Positions 1 through 21,955 of a stretch of DNA of 25,760 nucleotides are shown piece after piece (positions within the stretch are counted from its first letter, which is position 1; every line of letters begins with the position of its first letter). Under the pieces are notes generated by a model. The model saw nothing but the letters and a program-made list of their open reading frames with translations, was not told the origin of the DNA and searched no databases. This stretch comes from a virus. Made by a program: the position numbers and the translations under genes. The stretch lies in IMG/VR virus record IMGVR_UViG_3300034404_000004, positions 1-25,760 of that record. One strand, 5' to 3'.

Positions 1-104
1 CTGACCTCTGCGTCAAATATAAGCACAGAGAGTTTTAAGAGGTCCGCACCAGTTCCCTGTATGGGATAATTGACCGCGTCTGGGAAAGTGTGGGCGGAAT
101 AATT
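1..104 (-). pseudogene. polA: Family A DNA polymerase (polA-type) fragment, interrupted by the prophage
   Basis: Reading the minus strand from about base 104 to base 3 gives an uninterrupted stretch containing FPDAVNYPIQGTGADLLK followed by LSVLIFDAEV. This matches the helix-Q region of family A DNA polymerases, where Taq has NMPVQGTAADLMK, just before the catalytic motif C. The frame leaves the window at base 1, so the C-terminal part lies outside. On the other side the polymerase-like wording stops by about base 90-104, where the phage terminal repeat starts. I infer that the prophage inserted into this gene. It is more likely a host gene than a phage gene because it lies outside the terminal repeat. 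The exact junction cannot be fixed without the right end and its target duplication. Confidence 0.8.
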
Positions 105-123
105 TGACAAAAAAATGGGACAC
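105..123 (+). repeat. Terminal 19-bp repeat, copy 1 (transposase-site candidate)
   Basis: The sequence TGACAAAAAAATGGGACAC occurs here and, without mismatch, at 255-273 and 306-324. This outermost copy abuts the polA fragment and starts with TG, the usual terminal dinucleotide of Mu/Tn552-type elements. I infer that it is the end-proximal binding site for the DDE transposase. Confidence 0.7.
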
Positions 124-137
124 CCTTTGCGGGTTCC

Positions 138-172
138 GGGACATAGGGGGACATTGCGGGACTTTCTGGGAC
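138..172 (+). repeat. GGGAC repeated at exact 10-bp intervals
   Basis: GGGAC occurs at 138-142, 148-152, 158-162 and 168-172, one copy per helical turn. The same pentamer is part of the 19-bp end repeat (117-121). The motifs therefore lie on one face of the DNA, between the outer and inner end repeats. A protein-binding array is plausible but not proven. Confidence 0.55.
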
Positions 173-207
173 GCTTGAAAATCAAGGGCTTCAAATGGTG
201 GGGTTTT

Positions 208-221
208 CTGCAATTTTGCAG
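208..221 (+). repeat. CTGCAATTTTGCAG palindrome, exact copy (phage end)
   Basis: This exact copy lies in the non-coding end region, 7 bp before the 228-273 inverted end repeats. It is the only exact copy outside a gene. Confidence 0.8.
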
Positions 222-227
222 TCTGGG

Positions 228-246
228 GTGTCCCATGATTTTGTCA
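228..246 (-). repeat. End repeat, inverted copy
   Basis: This is an inverted copy of the 19-bp end repeat with 17 of 19 matches. Together with the direct copy at 255-273 it forms a large palindrome with an 8-bp loop (247-254). Confidence 0.7.
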
Positions 247-254
247 AACTTTTC

Positions 255-273
255 TGACAAAAAAATGGGACAC
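255..273 (+). repeat. End repeat, exact direct copy 2
   Basis: This is an exact copy of the 19-bp repeat at 105-123. It is the right arm of the 228-273 palindrome. Confidence 0.75.
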
Positions 274-305
274 TTTTTCATGGTGTTTTGGATTGGGTAA
301 GAATT

Positions 306-324
306 TGACAAAAAAATGGGACAC
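306..324 (+). repeat. End repeat, exact direct copy 3
   Basis: This is an exact copy of the 19-bp repeat, 201 bp inside copy 1. The four bases before it (AATT) also match those before copy 1, so the functional unit may be longer than 19 bp. Confidence 0.75.
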
Positions 325-355
325 CCCCCCTTCTGGGCTTGTTGATTTTCTAAGT

Positions 356-374
356 TTGTCCCGCATCGTTGTCA
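356..374 (-). repeat. Degenerate inverted end repeat
   Basis: The two ends of the 19-bp repeat (TGTCCC and TTGTCA) are kept at the right spacing in inverted orientation, but the middle seven bases differ. It lies just before the stop of the outermost gene. It may be a weak site or chance. Confidence 0.4.
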
Positions 375-8807: not shown

Positions 8808-9497
8808 TCACCTCCCGAGGGCTTTGGCTATTTTGTCCAATGTTTCTGCCGTGGGTTCTAACTTCTGACTTTTTAAGGCTTGCAAGCAAATTGCTGTATC
8901 CAGTGTGGTCCAGCCTTTCTCTTTTGCAAAATTGAATATCTGCACTGGGTCTGCTTGTATGCGGTATTCTTTGACGAGGAAGGAGATTGTTTCTTGGGTC
9001 AATGGCTGTAATTCTTTTTTTATAGCGAACCGTTTGAATAAGCTGTGGTCGTGGGATGCGAGGAGTTTGGGAGTGGTCTGGTCTCCGAGGAAGAGGTAGC
9101 AAAAGCCCAATTCTTCATCTTCGGAGAGGTCTTTCAATTCATTCAGGATGTGCTGTTTTCTGAGTATTCTCTGTGCCTCATCCAATATAAGAATTGGTTT
9201 GAGGTTGTAATATAACAGGTGGTGTTTGATAAGGTCTAAGGTGCTTTCGTAGGTAGACCTCGCACCACACCCTAAGCTAAAGCCAATAAGCCGATATAAC
9301 CGCCCCATCGTTATCTCTCCGTCGGGGGCCTTCACATAGAATACGTCTGGCTCCCGTTTTGCTATCTTTTGTGCGGAGACAGTTTTACCTGTCCCCCATT
9401 TACCCCATATGATAGCGTGAAGGGGTATGGTTTGCTCTGCCCTAAGACGTCTTAGGGCTTGGATGGTTGTGGTTAGGACTTGTTCTGCGTGCGTCAT
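8808..9497 (-). CDS. MuB-like AAA+ transposition ATPase
   Basis: This 229-residue protein has Walker A GKWGTGKT (residues 32-39) and Walker B ILILDEAQRI (102-111), with a sensor region YLFLGD near residue 135. It follows the transposase gene, overlapping its stop as ATGA. This is the pattern of MuB/TnsC-type ATPases, which bind DNA, choose target sites and activate the transposase. It is shorter than Mu MuB (312 residues), and the first 25 residues leave little room for a separate N-terminal DNA-binding domain. GGAGGTGAGCA precedes the ATG in a 23-bp block shared with another early gene. Confidence 0.8.
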   Translation of the reverse strand: MTHAEQVLTTTIQALRRLRAEQTIPLHAIIWGKWGTGKTVSAQKIAKREPDVFYVKAPDGEITMGRLYRLIGFSLGCGARSTYESTLDLIKHHLLYYNLKPILILDEAQRILRKQHILNELKDLSEDEELGFCYLFLGDQTTPKLLASHDHSLFKRFAIKKELQPLTQETISFLVKEYRIQADPVQIFNFAKEKGWTTLDTAICLQALKSQKLEPTAETLDKIAKALGR

Positions 9498-9510
9498 TGC
9501 TCACCTCCTA
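9488..9510 (-). repeat. 23-bp translation-start repeat, copy 1
   Basis: A 23-bp block with GGAGGTGAGCA, ATG and the first codons (Met-Thr-His) is identical to 13388-13410, exactly 3900 bp away and in the same orientation. It is the start region of two unrelated early genes. Confidence 0.8.
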
Positions 9511-10912
9511 AAAAGAGTTTTATTGGGTCCAGCTCCTCCTCAGGTTGAGGAGCTGGTTGTGAGCTTGGCTCAGAACTGCTTAAAAGCTCTAAAAAGGTTG
9601 CGGTCTCTTTTTGTTGTTGTAGTTCTTGCTGTTCAATCTCAATTAGTTCTTCTTTTAGCTTTCTCTTTCTTCTTTCTATCCTCTTTTCCTTGTTCCTTAG
9701 TTCCTTTATCTCCGTTGGGTCAAGGCTGGGGACATCTTGAGAGATTAGGCGGGCTATTCCGAGGGGGCGGGTTTCTTTTTCGTCCCAGACTTCTAAGATT
9801 GTGGCGTTTTCAAGGTCCCGATAACAGACCACTTCAGGGCTCTTTCTCGTTCTACCTATTTCTCCAGCCCGCTCTTCAAATGGATAGACAAATTCATAAA
9901 CTAAGTTCTCAATTCTTATAGCGTTGTTCCTAACAGTCCTCACAAACCGTTCTCTGAAGGCTTTCCTGATTTCATCCTCTTCTACTTGTCTGTATTCAAC
10001 TGTTGAATGTAAAATTTCAGGGATTACGGGTTCGCTGAAGTGTTCAAATTTATGTTCAGACTTGTTATACATCTCCACAGCAGACCTTAAGGCGCCTTCA
10101 AATGTCGGGTGAGTGTTTGTGTAGTATCTCAGAAGGTCTTTTATATCTCTAAAGCTTCTCTCTATAAGCTTTTGATTTGGCGCATATGGTTTAGTTCTCA
10201 CTACTGGGATGTTTAAATACTCAAGCCCTCGTGTGATGAGTTCTGCCTTCAGGACTGCTTCGTTGTCTGTTATGATGCGTTCGGGTACCCCATACTCTCT
10301 AAATAGAGAGATTAAAAACCGTGCTACATCAAGTGAATTGAAAGCTTTGTTATAGTGTTGGGCTTGGGTGTCTTCTTTGACTTTTGCCACCATGCAGGAG
10401 AGGAAGCACCCGCTCCACCTCTCCCGCACGGCGAGAATAAAATACCTCTCCCCTCTCCATGAGTAGGCTGTGGCATCTATTTCCCATGTGGCTGGCTCCC
10501 TTTTTTGTTTCCCTTTTGGTTTTCTATACTCTGCCAGCTCTGACTTATCTCTTCGCTTTAACTCCAGTCTTTCCCAGCCGCCAAACCTCTCCTTAATTAC
10601 TTCCTCAAGCCTCCGTCTAAATGTCCGTTCACTCCTTATTCCTCTCGTTTGTAGATCAACTTCTAAAAGCTTGTATATTTGGACTATTGATAAAACCCTT
10701 GTTCTGCCTTTCTCTTCCTTGCTAAAGGTAAGAAGCTCTATCACCCTATCCCATATTTCGTCTTGGAGCACATCTTTTCGCTTCTGTTCTGCTTGTGATG
10801 GCTCCTTCACCCACCGTTCCACCGTGCTTTTTGGTATCCCTAAAACCCTTGCAATCCTCCTGATCGGGATACCAAGAGAGTAAAGCCGTAGGGCTTCTTT
10901 CCTCTTGTCCAT
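9494..10912 (-). CDS. DDE transposase (MuA/rve family)
   Basis: This 472-residue protein starts with a resolvase-like HTH (IPIRRIARVLGIPKSTVERW). It then has an RNase-H-fold integrase core with Asp146 (TWEIDATAY), Asp216 (IITDNEAVL) and Glu251 (NQKLIERSF). The spacing from second Asp to Glu is 35 residues, the classic D,D-35-E. The C-terminal part is basic, then Glu/Gln-rich, and may contact the MuB-like ATPase encoded next. It should cut and join the phage ends for integration and replicative transposition, acting on the repeats at 105-374 and at the unseen right end. TAGGAGGGCGG precedes the ATG. Confidence 0.9.
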   Translation of the reverse strand: MDKRKEALRLYSLGIPIRRIARVLGIPKSTVERWVKEPSQAEQKRKDVLQDEIWDRVIELLTFSKEEKGRTRVLSIVQIYKLLEVDLQTRGIRSERTFRRRLEEVIKERFGGWERLELKRRDKSELAEYRKPKGKQKREPATWEIDATAYSWRGERYFILAVRERWSGCFLSCMVAKVKEDTQAQHYNKAFNSLDVARFLISLFREYGVPERIITDNEAVLKAELITRGLEYLNIPVVRTKPYAPNQKLIERSFRDIKDLLRYYTNTHPTFEGALRSAVEMYNKSEHKFEHFSEPVIPEILHSTVEYRQVEEDEIRKAFRERFVRTVRNNAIRIENLVYEFVYPFEERAGEIGRTRKSPEVVCYRDLENATILEVWDEKETRPLGIARLISQDVPSLDPTEIKELRNKEKRIERRKRKLKEELIEIEQQELQQQKETATFLELLSSSEPSSQPAPQPEEELDPIKLFLGGEQ

Positions 10913-10922
10913 CTCCGCCCTC

Positions 10923-12578
10923 CTACCAGCCTCTTACAGCCTTTTTAGAGAACTCCTTCACTTTCTCGTAAATCTCATCTGCTATTTCAAACGCTTTTAC
11001 CCATCCCAACTTGACGCCCATATCCAATAGCAACTCTTCCAGTGCGTTCCTATACCAGTCTTCTATGTCCGGGGGTGGAGTTTTTTCTTTCTTTTCTTTT
11101 GCTTTTTTCTGCTCTTGTGCCTTCTTTTCAAGTTCTTCTTTATATCTCCTAAGGTCTTCCCAGTCCTCTTCGGTCATGCTTTCCTCTATTTCTTTCGCTA
11201 TTTGTTCTATCTTCGCCCAGTCTATTTGCGTTGTTTCTTCTGTTTCTTCTTTTAGCATCTCTTCTACCCTTTTTACTATCTCCTCTACCACCGCGTTAAC
11301 TGGTCTTAGCCTTTTCTCTTTAAGCTTTTGCAACACTCCTTCCTTTATCTTGGTTAACCTGCCCCACTTGTCTACATCCTTTACTTTCTCCTTTATTTCC
11401 TTCAACTCGTCTTCTGAGAGTGCGTCTGCTGTTGCCTCGGGGACTGCCTTATATACCTCCATCAATTTGTCTGCGTGTCTGTGGAGTATCTCCTCAATCT
11501 TCTCTTTGTTGATATACACAAATGTGTGGTCCATCCCTCCAAGTCTTGCCAAGTCTTCCCTTAATGTTCTCCACGTGTGGAATACATACTCAGGGTTAGC
11601 AAGGACTTTCTTAGCCTGTTCTAAAACTTCCCTCTCAAGCTTTTGCTCCTCTTCGTGTTCTTTCTTTAGTTTCTCCCATAAGGCTTGGGCTTTTTCAAAG
11701 AATACCTTGCGTGCTTTCAGGGATAGTTCTTTGTATGGATAGACGGTTATTAGGTAGTTTTTGACTTTTTCGTAGCTTGGACTGTCTATGAACCGTTTAA
11801 AATCTTTCCTAAGTGCCTCATTTAAAAACTTCAGAATGTCTCTGAGGTTCTGGTCTTTAACTACTTCGTTGAAGGGTTTGTCCTTTAACTCTCCCTCGTG
11901 TTCCTCTATGAACTCCGATAGGGCTTTAAAGCCCTCCTCGGTGGGGGTGCCGTCGGGGTTTATGAGGGTGGTGACAATCTGCAACTTTTGCAGGTTTTCA
12001 CCACTTCCCCCACCATACCACTTAACTATGGTAGAATGATCTACTCCAAGCATTGAAGCTATTTCTCTTGTGGATAAGCCCTGGTTCTTTAGTTCTAACG
12101 CTTGCCTTTTCAGTTCCTCATCCTTCGCCCTTCTCTTTACTCCCTGAACCCAATTGTAGATTGTCCGCTCTGAAACCCTAAACAGCTTTCTTAGCCTTTC
12201 TATCTCTACTCCGTCTGCATACAACAGCCTTGCCAGTTCTTTCTTTTCTTCCTTATCCAAGGGTATCCCATGGCTTGCGTTCTTCTCAATGGCCAATATG
12301 CGAGCTTCCAATTCGTTCTCCAGTTCTACCACTTCCGCTTTGATGGTGTCTTTCCCAAGCCTTTTGCTTGCAAGGAGTCTGTGCATGCCGTCAATAAGCC
12401 AGTAAATCCCATTTCCCTTATCCCATACTGTGATTGGTGGGAACTCCTGCCCTTCTGCCATCGCCTCTTGGTATTCCTGCACTTTCTCTTCTATGGTGTG
12501 GGTGTAAATACGGGGCAGTAAGCCCTGAATGACTTCAATTTTGGTTATTGGGACCTCAAAAACACCTTTGCTTCTCAT
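10923..12578 (-). CDS. ParB-like DNA-binding protein
   Basis: This 551-residue protein has an N-terminal ParB/Srx-like domain with LIDGMHRLLASKRLG (residues 61-75) and NASHGIPLDKEE (100-111). Two helix-turn-helices follow (LRKLFRVSERTIYNWV near 129-144 and LSTREIASMLGVDHSTIVKW near 168-187), then about 350 mostly helical, charged residues. The ParB-box Arg is kept in GMHR. It is much longer than usual ParB proteins (about 300 residues). It is the first gene after two terminators and directly precedes the transposase. It may organise phage DNA, regulate transcription or assist transposition. No ParA is visible in this window. GGAGGT lies 7 nt before the ATG. Confidence 0.75.
   Translation of the reverse strand: MRSKGVFEVPITKIEVIQGLLPRIYTHTIEEKVQEYQEAMAEGQEFPPITVWDKGNGIYWLIDGMHRLLASKRLGKDTIKAEVVELENELEARILAIEKNASHGIPLDKEEKKELARLLYADGVEIERLRKLFRVSERTIYNWVQGVKRRAKDEELKRQALELKNQGLSTREIASMLGVDHSTIVKWYGGGSGENLQKLQIVTTLINPDGTPTEEGFKALSEFIEEHEGELKDKPFNEVVKDQNLRDILKFLNEALRKDFKRFIDSPSYEKVKNYLITVYPYKELSLKARKVFFEKAQALWEKLKKEHEEEQKLEREVLEQAKKVLANPEYVFHTWRTLREDLARLGGMDHTFVYINKEKIEEILHRHADKLMEVYKAVPEATADALSEDELKEIKEKVKDVDKWGRLTKIKEGVLQKLKEKRLRPVNAVVEEIVKRVEEMLKEETEETTQIDWAKIEQIAKEIEESMTEEDWEDLRRYKEELEKKAQEQKKAKEKKEKTPPPDIEDWYRNALEELLLDMGVKLGWVKAFEIADEIYEKVKEFSKKAVRGW
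11979..11993 (+). repeat. Palindrome variant with 3-bp spacer (ParB-like gene)
   Basis: CTGCAACTTTTGCAG has the same arms as the dispersed palindrome but a CTT spacer in place of TT. Confidence 0.6.
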
Positions 12579-17201: not shown

Positions 17202-19851
17202 ACAGCTTGTATTAGAGATCAGGGCAGAAGTCGGACAGCTAAGGGCACAGCTGGATGAACTGAGAAACAGACTACAGGGTATAGACACAAGCTGGACTGA
17301 AAATTTGCAGAAAAACATAGAACAAAGCACTCAGTCTGCTAAACAGCTTGCAAGTCAGTTTGAAAACATAGCATCTACTATACGGACAATAGCATTGTCT
17401 TTACCTTTTCTGGGCTTCATCAAAGAGGGTATTGAATTCAATAAACAGATAGAACAAAGTCGCATTGGCTTTGCGGGTATTCTTACATCTATCGCACAGA
17501 TAAGAAACGAGCAAGGCAGGCTTGTGGAGGGTGCAGAGAAATACGCAAACGCAGTCAAGCTGTCAAATCAACTTCTCAATGAACTACGCATTGCAGGGTT
17601 GCAGACTGTCCTAACCTTCCAAGACCTTGTTGAAATAGCCCAAGGTATAATGGCACCTTTTCTGTCGGCAGGCGGTAATCTGAAAGAGTTCTCTCAGTTT
17701 GTGGTGCTACTCTCTAACGCAGTTGCTGCCATAGGACTACCCATGAACCAAGTAGTGCAGGAGGCAAGAGACCTCTTAATGGGCACAATTGATATGAACT
17801 CTCAACTGGCAAGGTCCCTTGGGATTACCAACGAAATGGTCAATAGATGGAGGGAACAGGGAACACTCTTTCAAGAATTGACTGCAAGATTGCAGGGTTT
17901 TCAGTTTGCGGGTAAAGATGTAGAAGGAAGCTTTACAGGACTACTCGCTAAAGCTAAAGAAGTTTTTCAGGTCTTTGCGGGCATGGCTACTGCTAAAGTC
18001 TTTGAGGCTATAAAGAAAGACTTGGATGAGTTTATAGCGAAGTTTTTAGTAGTCAAAGACGGGAAAATAGAGCTCTCCGTTGAAGGGCAAGAACTCGTAG
18101 AGAAGATTTCAGAAACACTAACAAATCTTTATAACATCATAAGCACTCTCGTGAAAGTAGTAGGCACACTCACAGTAGAATTCGGCGGGTTTATAACAAA
18201 AGCATTAGAGATATACATCGTAATAAAAGCTGTTTCTGCTTTGAAGTCTGCTATTGAAGCCTTAATCGGGAGCATGAGAACTCTCGGCACGGTGGGCGCA
18301 ACTGCAATAACGGGATTAGGCGCTCTGTTCTCACGGCTAAATATCATAGTGGCAACTGCGCTTGTGGGCTGGAACTTGGGCGAGATGCTTCGGGAGTGGC
18401 TGGATGAACAGACTAAAGGAGCATTCACTAAGTGGCTAATCAGAATAGAGACATTCATTATAGATGGAATTAACAGGCTGAGGGCTTTGATTGGTAAAAT
18501 TCCCGGTCTCGGTCGCTTTCTCGGTATCTCGGAGGAGGAACTGCAGGAAAGCTTAAAAATCACTGCAAAGATGCGGGAGATGGCGGAGGAAGATGCAAGG
18601 AGATACAAAGAAGCACAGCAAAAAGCAGCGCAAGAGATAAACCAAGCAGGGCAGATAACCGCACAGGCTATAAGACAAGTCTCTAAACAGCAAGTAGAGG
18701 AGATTTTGAAGTCCCTCAAGGAGCAAGAGCAAACAATTGCAAAATTGCAAGAGATAAAGCAAAAACTGAAAGACAGTCTATCCCTTCAGGATGTTATGAC
18801 TGCATTACAAGATGAAACTAAAGCATTCTCTCAAAAACTTGAACTCTCTTTAGACACTTCAGATGTAGAAGACAGAATAGACACGCTAAAGAGAAAGCTT
18901 AGAGAACTGCAAGACTTGCTAAAAGAAAACTTAGAAGACGAAGCACGCAAGCAAGTGTTAAGAGAAATATTGCAAACTGAACTTGAGATAGCACAAGCTA
19001 CAGTGGAGGGCTATCAGAGGAGAAAACAGGCACTGGAAGAATTTCTCAGGGATGCTTGGGCTAAAGAACAAGACTACGCACGCAAGGTAGTAGAACTCAC
19101 AAGGGAAAGGAACAATCTACTCGCACAGCTTGAGAAAGAAAGGCAAGACCTAATCAGCAAGTTTATTCCAAAAGAACTGCAAGTTCAGCTTGGATTTACA
19201 ACACAACAAGAACCAATCACGCGAGTAGCAAACATCCTAAACCTCGTCCAACAGGCAAGAGATCTCGCAAGTCAAATACAGCAAGCAGTCGCACAAGGCT
19301 TAGCACCGCAACAGATAGAAATTCTCAAGATGCGATATCAAGATTTAGTTCAGCAAATCAGGGACGGTTTAAAACAGCTAACTCCTGAGGAGGTTATACA
19401 AGCCTATCAGTCGCTTACATACTCTTCTAAAGAATCACTCACAAGGCTGTTTACAAACATAACAGGAGATATGCAGAAGGCAAATCAGCTTGTAGAACAA
19501 CTGTATGAAATATACCAAAGGATGCCCACCTCTCTTGCAGCGGCAGAGGGTGTGGACTTTGGTAGGCTGTTTGGTGCTACTTTTGTTGATTCTGTAATGA
19601 AACAGCTACAGCAAATGCAAGCAAGCGTGTCTGATAGCTTCATACAACAAGCACAACAACTTGAGAACTTCTACGCACAGCAGGTAAGCAAGATTTCTCA
19701 GATGATTATACAACTTGAGAATTTGAAGCCTCGCATAGAACTTGACATGTCCGCCGCAGAAGCGCAGATACAAAGTTTGAACGGTAGAAAGATAGTGATA
19801 TATGCAGACATTGTGAATTCTCAAACGGGCGAAGCGTTGAGGGTGAGATAA
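17188..19851 (+). CDS. Tape measure protein
   Basis: This 887-residue protein is the longest in the window and follows the frameshifted chaperones. It has an N-terminal coiled coil and a tape-measure-type domain containing VVQEARDLLMGTIDMNSQLARSL (split here over residues near 190-215). A hydrophobic stretch at about residues 310-405 is followed by long Gln/Glu-rich coiled coils to the end. At roughly 0.15 nm per residue it predicts a tail of about 130 nm. A TTG at 17182 is in frame. I choose the ATG at 17188 because GAGGAG lies 7 nt upstream. Confidence 0.85.
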   Translation: MAISEQLVLEIRAEVGQLRAQLDELRNRLQGIDTSWTENLQKNIEQSTQSAKQLASQFENIASTIRTIALSLPFLGFIKEGIEFNKQIEQSRIGFAGILTSIAQIRNEQGRLVEGAEKYANAVKLSNQLLNELRIAGLQTVLTFQDLVEIAQGIMAPFLSAGGNLKEFSQFVVLLSNAVAAIGLPMNQVVQEARDLLMGTIDMNSQLARSLGITNEMVNRWREQGTLFQELTARLQGFQFAGKDVEGSFTGLLAKAKEVFQVFAGMATAKVFEAIKKDLDEFIAKFLVVKDGKIELSVEGQELVEKISETLTNLYNIISTLVKVVGTLTVEFGGFITKALEIYIVIKAVSALKSAIEALIGSMRTLGTVGATAITGLGALFSRLNIIVATALVGWNLGEMLREWLDEQTKGAFTKWLIRIETFIIDGINRLRALIGKIPGLGRFLGISEEELQESLKITAKMREMAEEDARRYKEAQQKAAQEINQAGQITAQAIRQVSKQQVEEILKSLKEQEQTIAKLQEIKQKLKDSLSLQDVMTALQDETKAFSQKLELSLDTSDVEDRIDTLKRKLRELQDLLKENLEDEARKQVLREILQTELEIAQATVEGYQRRKQALEEFLRDAWAKEQDYARKVVELTRERNNLLAQLEKERQDLISKFIPKELQVQLGFTTQQEPITRVANILNLVQQARDLASQIQQAVAQGLAPQQIEILKMRYQDLVQQIRDGLKQLTPEEVIQAYQSLTYSSKESLTRLFTNITGDMQKANQLVEQLYEIYQRMPTSLAAAEGVDFGRLFGATFVDSVMKQLQQMQASVSDSFIQQAQQLENFYAQQVSKISQMIIQLENLKPRIELDMSAAEAQIQSLNGRKIVIYADIVNSQTGEALRVR
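18737..18750 (+). repeat. Palindrome variant (tape-measure gene)
   Basis: TTGCAAAATTGCAA differs from the dispersed palindrome only in its two outermost bases, and the exchange keeps its symmetry. Confidence 0.5.
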
Positions 19852-19853
19852 AG

Positions 19854-20588
19854 ATGGCGGTGCAAATAGGAACTATAACGCTTAACGACGCTTGGATACG
19901 GAACAAGTGGGGTGGGCGGGTTTCTGCTTCTACTATCAAAAAACAAGCTACAACTCAAAAAATCAATTCACTCATCCTTCCACCGTGCAGCGCTAAAAGC
20001 AAAGAGGAAAGAAGGAGTGTTCTCTATGCAATAGACGGAACAGAATACATATCAAACTGCAATTCTGCAGTAGAAAGTTCGCCACCCACGGGTTCAGTGT
20101 CCGTGTATAGTTCATCTCCGGGCTCCGCACAGGTGGGAGAAAACATCCACATTGTGGTTAATATGGAATGGCTTATCTTCCGTGCAATAGACATATACGG
20201 CAGACTTTATAAACTCACAGAGTCAGACATAATCACAGTGAGAATCACAGACGAATACGATCGCTATGTGATGAAGTATGTATTCTGCAAAGAAGACGGC
20301 ACGGAATATTACAGAGGCTACATCTCTCTCAATGTGCAAATAGAAGAAGAAAGCAAAGACAGTTCAGAAAAGGAAGTCGTCATAAACACTTGCACAAGTT
20401 CGCAAGCGAGGGCGCTCGGGCTCATGCTGGGGACAAAGACTGTTATAGCTGACGAGGATGTGTCTTTCTATGCGCTGATCACTGAGGTCAACCTTGAGTA
20501 TGTAGCAGGCGATATGGTGGATACCGCAACAAGGATAAGGCAAGGCGTGGATATTTACAAGGGAACGGTAAGGTTTGTGGTGCTATGA
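19854..20588 (+). CDS. Putative distal tail protein
   Basis: This 244-residue protein occupies the slot right after the tape measure, where siphoviruses encode the distal tail (Dit) protein. It starts with a strand-rich segment (IGTITLNDAWIRNKWGGRV), has a Ser/Pro-rich middle and a C-terminal beta region. No motif proves the role. The stop overlaps the next start as ATGA, coupling it to the hub-like protein. Confidence 0.55.
   Translation: MAVQIGTITLNDAWIRNKWGGRVSASTIKKQATTQKINSLILPPCSAKSKEERRSVLYAIDGTEYISNCNSAVESSPPTGSVSVYSSSPGSAQVGENIHIVVNMEWLIFRAIDIYGRLYKLTESDIITVRITDEYDRYVMKYVFCKEDGTEYYRGYISLNVQIEEESKDSSEKEVVINTCTSSQARALGLMLGTKTVIADEDVSFYALITEVNLEYVAGDMVDTATRIRQGVDIYKGTVRFVVL
20057..20070 (+). 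repeat. Palindrome variant, one mismatch (distal tail gene)
   Basis: CTGCAATTCTGCAG differs from the dispersed motif at one position. Confidence 0.6.
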
Positions 20589-21955
20589 GTAGAAGCTTCT
20601 TCTTCCCTTGTCTGATAGACGGAGTTCCGAAGGACAGAACGATTTCAGTTGAAATTCAAGCGAGGGAGAATAGCTACTTCAAATCTGCGCAGATTGAGTT
20701 TATTAACTACACACCACCCGAGGAGGTAAGCATCAACTTTGCGGGGGCACATTTGTTTAGGGGTAGGTTGAAAAACACACAACAAAAGCCGTGTGGGAGA
20801 GTGCTTGCTTATTATGAAACGATTTTGAACTGTGCGGATATAAAGCCCACTATCATCATCACAAGGGAAGCGTTTAACATGCTTGTAAATCCAACTTTCA
20901 GACAAAGATTAGAAAGCCTTCTCGGTTTTTGGGGGTATGACACCGCAAGACAAACGGAAGGGAGAGAAAGTGCCAGCATACATACAGAAGAATTTGCGAA
21001 CTACCCGTGGAGAGACCCGCCAGGAGTGCTTTACAGATATTACTTTGATTACGCAAGTCAGACATATAGACCTTTCACAATCTACCTTGACTATTACGAC
21101 ACAGTCGCTAAAGCTGAATACTTTCAGTCCTCTTCTTTCTCTCTCCCTTTCCCGGACACGCCGTGGAATTTACCTTTGATTGTAAGAAGCAACACCCTCT
21201 CCTACCCACCCAACTCCCTCCTTGCTTTCAGAATTGCGAGAGTACTGTATAGATCGTCAATCACATTCCCATACACTGAATACACGCTCGGGTGGGTTTT
21301 TGTCTTTGAGAAGATAGTAGACGATGTGAGTGGTTATAGAGTGTTTTGGGATGCGCCGTTTGCTGTGCAGTGGTCTCCACCCTATCCCGTCAGGGTTTTT
21401 GATGTACTTGGTGCAATAGTGCAGACTTCCAGCACCGCAAAGTTTATTAAACCCATAATTGTCAACAACTTCACGGATGTAATCCAAGTCCTCCGCAAGT
21501 TCCCGCAAAACATCATCGTCAAAATCAACGAGGACGGCGTGCCCGTAGGCACTGATGTAGAATACATTCAAAACACCTTTGAACTTCCAGACTCTGTCGT
21601 GTTTGATTACACCCTACCCAAACTCAAACCCGTATCAATCACAATGAAAGCGGAAGGCGAAGGCTGGCGGTATAAGGTAGAAGCAAAAGATGAAAACTCC
21701 TGCCAGCTTGCCACACTTGAGATTAACAACTCCGATGTGATACTTGAGAATCAAGCAGATATAAACAGACTACTGAAGCACTTCAAGTTAAATTTACAAG
21801 AACGAGGATATTTAAAGTGCGTGCTACTCCCAGACCTTGATCTCTACCACAAGATCAGGTTTAAAGGTAAGGAATTCAGAGTTGTGGGATACACGCACAG
21901 AATTACGAAAGACTATGCAGTATCGGAATTAAATTTAGTTGAGGAGGTAAGTTGA
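20585..21955 (+). CDS. Putative tail hub / baseplate protein
   Basis: This 456-residue protein begins like hub proteins of the gp27 class (DGVPKDRTISVEIQARENSYFKS in two short strands). It ends with KIRFKGKEFRVVGYTHRI and a YAVSELNLVEE strand, a common C-terminal pattern of phage tail hubs. The middle is aromatic and Pro-rich. It follows the distal tail candidate and precedes tip proteins, which fits a ring that closes the tube and carries the tip. The assignment is by pattern and order. Confidence 0.6.
   Translation: MSRSFFFPCLIDGVPKDRTISVEIQARENSYFKSAQIEFINYTPPEEVSINFAGAHLFRGRLKNTQQKPCGRVLAYYETILNCADIKPTIIITREAFNMLVNPTFRQRLESLLGFWGYDTARQTEGRESASIHTEEFANYPWRDPPGVLYRYYFDYASQTYRPFTIYLDYYDTVAKAEYFQSSSFSLPFPDTPWNLPLIVRSNTLSYPPNSLLAFRIARVLYRSSITFPYTEYTLGWVFVFEKIVDDVSGYRVFWDAPFAVQWSPPYPVRVFDVLGAIVQTSSTAKFIKPIIVNNFTDVIQVLRKFPQNIIVKINEDGVPVGTDVEYIQNTFELPDSVVFDYTLPKLKPVSITMKAEGEGWRYKVEAKDENSCQLATLEINNSDVILENQADINRLLKHFKLNLQERGYLKCVLLPDLDLYHKIRFKGKEFRVVGYTHRITKDYAVSELNLVEEVS

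Follow-up and report, generated by a model that had tools for sequence, protein, structure and literature searches.

Several transposase sites per end, non-equivalent left and right ends, and a DDE transposase accompanied by an AAA ATPase (MuA/MuB) are found in the transposable phages Mu and D108, and the phage described here resembles them, as a class, in each of these respects. Scanning the ends of Mu with a MuA consensus gave two plus-strand sites in the left end; in the right end, R3 lay on the plus strand and, opposed to it, R2 and R1 on the minus strand, so that R3 and its neighbor R2 make an inverted pair across 6 bp. The legend of a review figure states that the two Mu ends differ in site spacing and orientation (PMC3562280). 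Mu-like phages are reported to start with TGT, and those of Pseudomonas aeruginosa to have three sites per end, with R1 inverted relative to R2 and R3 (PMC4378225); Burkholderia phage KS10 is described as having a head module interrupted by transposition and regulation genes, and termini that lack TG...CA (PMC2628397). The original prediction for our locus had assumed that Mu ends hold direct sites only and had taken copies in both orientations as a new architecture. Neither statement holds, since R3 already opposes R1 and R2 in Mu, and R1 is already inverted in the Pseudomonas phages.

Among 50,697 phage records, the transposase of our phage matched only that of Thiobacimonas phage vB_ThpS-P1 (31% identity over 26% of the protein), and a literature search found no described phage of this kind. 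In vB_ThpS-P1, as here, a ParB-like gene directly precedes the transposase-matched gene, but no comparable end repeats were found in its deposited ends.

We refer to the whole stretch of DNA that was analyzed, an IMG/VR fragment of 25,760 bases that stops inside TerL and holds no right end, as the window. Its features are:

1-97, minus strand: foreign DNA (host or other replicon) with a fragment of an interrupted family-A DNA polymerase gene (PDB 8jrb match)
98-104, plus strand: element tip AATAATT (in relatives TAT, TGT or AAT followed by AATT), from a comparison of 22 tips
105-123, plus strand: site L1, in 11/11 left ends
138-172, plus strand: four GGGAC words at exact 10-bp steps (138, 148, 158, 168), candidate packaging site, from end comparison and shuffles
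175-187, no strand assigned: short palindrome CTTGAAAATCAAG, candidate accessory-factor site, from end comparison
208-221, no strand assigned: palindrome CTGCAATTTTGCAG, candidate site of a ParB-like protein or accessory factor, from end comparison
228-246, minus strand: site L2, inverted, in 11/11 left ends
255-273, plus strand: site L3, in 11/11 left ends, forming a 46-bp palindrome with L2
306-324, plus strand: site L4, inside a stretch that shares homology with right tip R1, from comparison of ends
356-374, minus strand: site L5, degenerate and inverted, counterpart of right-end R2, from comparison of ends
8808-9497, minus strand: AAA+ ATPase, MuB/TniB-like (Pfam TniB 25.3 bits, cut-off 22.4; phrog_296 DNA transposition protein)
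9494-10912, minus strand: DDE transposase with invariant D146, D216 and E251 (phrog_310 transposase, E 4e-18; alignment; Foldseek)
10923-12578, minus strand: ParB-like/HTH protein adjoining the transposase (phrog_1033, E 2.4e-12)

The window is a Mu-like transposable phage. Its DDE transposase gene lies next to that of the AAA+ ATPase, and the same element encodes structural and packaging proteins (MCP, phrog_212; tail, phrog_807; TerL, phrog_38) along with a LexA-like repressor in mid-genome. Site repeats occur at both non-equivalent ends, the right end being seen in relatives only and the transposase sites being predicted, and insertions were found at many host sites (a polymerase gene, the panB operon, tRNA-Ser and others), with one strongly preferred locus. 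The catalytic residues were invariant in 11 aligned transposase sequences. The predicted transposase model was of modest confidence (pLDDT 65.7); its top twelve Foldseek matches comprised TnsB of ShCAST, the MuA transpososome, TnsB of Tn7 and IstA, with the ShCAST protein ranking first (E 9e-10 for this model of modest confidence), and VIA-align with residues 138-309 ranked retroviral integrase cores (Z ~11). By its predicted TnsB-type fold, a Tn7-like trait read from the same modest-confidence model, and by its TniB-like ATPase, the phage would resemble the TnsB/TniA elements Tn7, Tn5053 and type V-K CAST. It differs from them in being a phage with capsid, tail and terminase, and in that Pfam matched the TniQ family in none of 21 window proteins and 7 right-arm proteins.

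The length of the element can be estimated from contig G004, a phage of the same type, in which the run of genes that starts with the repressor and ends with TerL matches the window (protein identity 52-97%) and is followed by a portal gene (phrog_145), head-morphogenesis genes, the right end and then foreign DNA. In G004, the TerL stretch at which the window stops lies ~5.9 kb from the right tip, which gives ~31.5 kb for the whole element.

The relatives fall into two phage types that share the ends and the transposition module, one comprising the window, G030 and G005, and the other G013, G019, L027, G001, G025 and L020; in the latter, the module has the opposite orientation with respect to the ends, and no match was seen for most of the window's structural genes. 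In G005 (17672-20664), the tape-measure gene changes strand part-way, through either an inversion or an assembly fault. ARAGORN listed tRNAs with unusual anticodons inside phages near the right end, namely tRNA-Asn(att) at 906-999 of L020 and tRNA-Tyr(ata) at 10645-10738 of L021. A transposase search of genome contigs returned one contig, from a MAG filed as Bathyarchaeota; contigs L036 and L053 of this archaeal MAG (WUQU01) are fragments of the present phage group and may therefore be mis-binned. The IMG/VR sample names suggest hot springs, and the host may be a member of the Aquificota.

We place the left tip of the window, by comparison of tip sequences, at about base 98 and not at 105; the original prediction had staked itself on a boundary close to 105, and the tip lies within a few bases of it. 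TAATT stands directly before TGAC in all 22 tips compared (the window and its relatives). One base further out, at position -6, A occurs in 18 and G in 4, and at position -7 T occurs in 18 and A in 3 (n = 21). No base dominates beyond -7, so that the consensus ends 7 bases outside TGAC (21 ends) and the flanks differ from there on. On the other side of this junction, the 32-aa minus-strand translation of bases 3-98 matches DNA polymerase I (PDB 8jrb, E 4e-11), the match starting at query residue 2 from the junction, and this homology ends where the tip consensus ends. The outermost triplet is TAT in 14/21 tips, TGT in 4/21 and AAT, as in the window, in 3/21; a canonical 5′-TG is thereby present at only 4/21 tips, which comes near the TGT start of Mu-like phages without strictly following it.

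Exact copies of TGACAAAAAAATGGGACAC lie on the plus strand at 105-123, 255-273 and 306-324, with an inverted copy at 228-246 that is 17/19 identical (2 mismatches). At up to three mismatches, the window holds four matches against 0.02 expected, and none of 100 shuffles gave four. The repeats had been proposed from the letters alone, and this search bears them out, as it does the palindrome with an 8-bp loop: the inverted pair spans 46 bp at 228-273 with a gap of 8 bp. A degenerate fifth site at 356-374 had also been proposed; it is indeed weak as a 19-mer, but its orientation had to be corrected to inverted, the minus strand reading TGACAACGATGCGGGACA with both half-sites, TTTGAC and GGGACA, kept. 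The left end consequently has three direct and two inverted sites. The word GGGAC occurs 38 times in the window (both strands), nine of them within 117-362.

A viral contig scan with the 19-mer identified 20 contigs, to which the tip pattern added a few and a transposase search further ones; two further viral contig scans gave no additional end. We counted an end only if its outermost and inner sites were both present, which left 11 left ends, the window included, and 11 right ends. Excluded were L013, in which an L4-like site touches a second right end; L011 and G007, where a right tip stands alone within a different phage; L038 and L040, which gave one pattern match each, with no match to window proteins in the first 3,000 bases of L038; and L053, a contig edge with just L3 and L4. 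All 11 left ends showed the same order and orientation: plus at 0, minus at 124-128, plus at 150-154, plus at 201-205 and minus at 252-257. All 11 right ends had plus sites at 0 (the tip, R1) and 96 bp inward (R3), and in 10/11 an inverted site without the spacer was present at 60 (R2), which for want of that spacer may not be a transposase site. The expectation of a phage end with several transposase-site candidates is thus matched at the relatives' right tips, and the 19-mer, whose absence from the right end would have counted against the original prediction, is present there in the relatives, the window itself having no right end.

The left ends are as little as 78% identical overall (n = 11), with spacings that are nearly constant (L2-L3 26, or 25 in one end; L3-L4 51; L4-L5 51-52), and 75/95 columns inside the sites are invariant versus 109/182 outside. 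Because two pairs are highly similar (L022 and L024, 97%; L012 and L018, 94%), these are not 11 independent cases. Counted from L4 and from R1, the first ~45 bp of the two ends align, and L5, whose spacer is poorly conserved, lies at R2's place; the left end thus repeats the right tip internally in degenerate form. At 1351-1369 of L011 (IMGVR_UViG_3300042858_000011, 88 kb), a solo right tip of ~80 bp (R1 and R2) was found past a Gp23-like capsid gene in a large phage unrelated to this group, with no other part of the element present. In L013 (5504-5573), a tip-like TATAATT accompanies an L4-like site that stands, inverted, against the interior of another right end; this junction is either an insertion into a sister phage or a chimera.

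The five-site left-end layout is a conserved new variant of an arrangement whose use of both orientations was already known. Like Mu, the phage has an inverted site within an end, as R3 is to R2 across the 6-bp gap, but Mu has three left sites where five are found here, the site sequence differs, and the inverted pair is back-to-back in Mu and tip-to-tip here. The TAT/TGT/AAT tip, the inner right-tip copy and a repressor in mid-genome instead of at the left end also set it apart from Mu. The P. aeruginosa Mu-like phages (Casadabanvirus and the B3 group) share the possession of one inverted site but differ in site sequences and spacings, and the sections of PMC4378225 used here report no five-site end. 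KS10 shares the interrupted head module and the non-TG...CA termini, but only four direct sites are reported in the corresponding sections of PMC2628397. The present ends differ from those of Mu and the Pseudomonas phages in the number of sites (five), the tip-to-tip polarity of L2 and L3, and the nested copy of the right tip.

Taken from sequence comparison, bases 98-374 are very probably the true left end of a Mu-like transposable phage of ~31.5 kb, carrying sites that its transposase is predicted to bind. The palindrome at 228-273 might instead be read as an RNA hairpin, for example a terminator against transcription entering from the host, with its likeness to the tip site secondary. The plus strand folds at -26.6 kcal/mol (z -6.06; 0/200 shuffles equalled it), and TTTTT follows L3 in 11/11 left ends. 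Any inverted pair of sites would fold in this way, however, and across 10 distinct left ends 0/17 pairs had changed on both sides and three were broken (in 9/10, 3/10 and 1/10 left-end rows); since 14/17 pairs never vary, there are few changes to judge by and the covariation test is suggestive only. The half-sites are kept in both L2 and L3, the L2 spacer being variable and the L3 A-tract kept, and the same site is found singly at L1, L4, R1 and R3. A terminator pattern scan had no entry at 228-273. No pair showed the compensatory changes by which a rho-independent terminator hairpin would be conserved, and the terminator reading stays a minor alternative. We consider a hairpin very improbable, and these comparisons suggest that the L2-L3 palindrome comprises two independent bipartite protein sites, not a conserved hairpin.

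It is also unlikely, if less so, that only L1, R1 and perhaps R3 work as transposase sites, L4-L5 being a relic of a right-tip duplication and L2-L3 having some other role. The alignment of L4-L5 with R1-R2 over ~45 bp and the varying degeneracy of the sites would fit such a history, but not the near-constant L2-L3, L3-L4 and L4-L5 spacings in left ends that have diverged so far, nor the excess of invariant columns inside the sites. That the sites serve as operators, bound by a phage regulator or by the ParB-like protein, and lie at the tips by chance, is likewise very improbable: although the phage encodes a LexA-like repressor, a ParB-like protein and HTH proteins, the 19-mer stands at the physical tip in 22/22 ends, it does not recur elsewhere in the window at up to three mismatches, whether at the repressor or at the early promoters, and the palindrome that is scattered over the genome is a different one, CTGCAAWWTTGCAG.

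This palindrome is present in 11/11 left and 11/11 right ends (one with an extra base) and occurs exactly six times in the window (208, 1086, 8373, 14003, 23377 and 24996); at up to two mismatches there are 16 occurrences against 0.63 expected, mostly within genes. We regard it as a candidate site of the ParB-like protein. The core TTGAwwwTCAA of the shorter palindrome at 175-187 was found in 10/11 left and 10/11 right ends.

The last three rungs of the GGGAC ladder are present in 11/11 left ends and the ladder in 0/11 right ends; searched for across the viral collection, the ladder pattern matched only the known left ends. It resembles the left end of Mu, where GGA occurs at 34, 44, 54 and 64; an exact 10-bp ladder of four arose in 0/2000 shuffles for the window and 0/2000 for Mu. 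A GGA ladder of four with 9-11 bp steps was found at the B3 end (28/2000 shuffles), adding to the likeness with the P. aeruginosa phages, and one with a missing rung in D108; none was seen in the ends of D3112, DMS3 and ThpS-P1. The Mu packaging site (pac) lies in the ladder part of the left end, and by analogy with this position the GGGAC ladder may be a packaging site.

Insertion sites were read from the DNA outside the tips. All six right ends with at least 18 bases outside the tip lie just past the 3′ end of a tRNA-Ser, in one orientation, with gaps of 7, 10, 10, 15, 30 and 32 bp; the remaining five right ends have at most 11 bases outside. ARAGORN found a full tRNA-Ser(TGA) in four of these flanks (L008, L014, L021 and L050), that of L006 is cut by the contig end, and G001 keeps only the last bases; another listing of the six gives L005, L006, L008, L014, L021 and L050. 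L006 and L021 have a common tRNA flank and lie 2 bp apart, yet only 241 bp of their first 3.5 kb can be matched, most of it belonging to the end itself, so they are different phages at one place. Ten left ends have at least 18 bases outside. Four of them (L012, L015, L017 and L018) run up against the start of a 106-aa ORF, which in L015 lies before panB, with endpoints nested over ~15 bp in one orientation. In three of these four flanks we found TTTTTGTCAAA(T), a sequence similar to the tip of the element. The other six left flanks include the polymerase gene of the window, a position ~300 bp from a tRNA-Leu (L010), and that of G005, presumably the end of an IS transposase gene as read by eye. 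Scans for the panB-side and tRNA-Ser-side flanks returned only ends already known and gave no link between the two sides at a single locus. The oriented clustering at tRNA-Ser may reflect either targeting or the survival of harmless insertions.

A mechanism built on the observed repeat geometry and its conservation, the tip position, the presence of sites at both ends, and the transposase and ATPase genes would run as follows. The DDE transposase would bind the bipartite site TTTGAC-(7-8 bp)-GGGACA at L1 (the tip), L2, L3, L4 and L5 and, at the right end, at R1, R3 and possibly the shortened R2. L1 and R1 would fix the cleavage points, and the inner sites in both orientations, by analogy with L2/L3 and R2/R3 of Mu, would recruit more subunits, whose count we infer, into a paired-end complex. 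The ATPase would supply target DNA, insertion would produce a target duplication, and the GGGAC ladder between L1 and L2 would start packaging. The transpososome may have a distinct geometry, as originally suggested. A broader proposal, drawn by analogy and in our view rather doubtful, is that of a Mu-type prophage lineage that transposes in fixed orientation beside one tRNA-Ser, in a Tn7-like manner through a ParB-like or ATPase selector, and also elsewhere, its composite left end combining a five-site transpososome platform, an inner right-tip copy and a helically phased packaging ladder.

These findings describe a conserved end anatomy for a group of transposable phages that is known, in the data searched here, only from metagenome contigs. 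The points of interest are the fixed five-site layout, the nested right tip, the GGGAC ladder and the tRNA-Ser insertions. As the transposase is far from known ones, Mu-type paired-end assembly becomes comparable across a deep divide, and the proteins are possibly heat-stable. The ladder, in a position common with that in the left end of Mu, is a candidate for how such phages mark the packaged end, and the oriented tRNA-Ser insertion, should it reflect targeting, would make the distinction between random Mu-type and targeted Tn7-type transposition less sharp.
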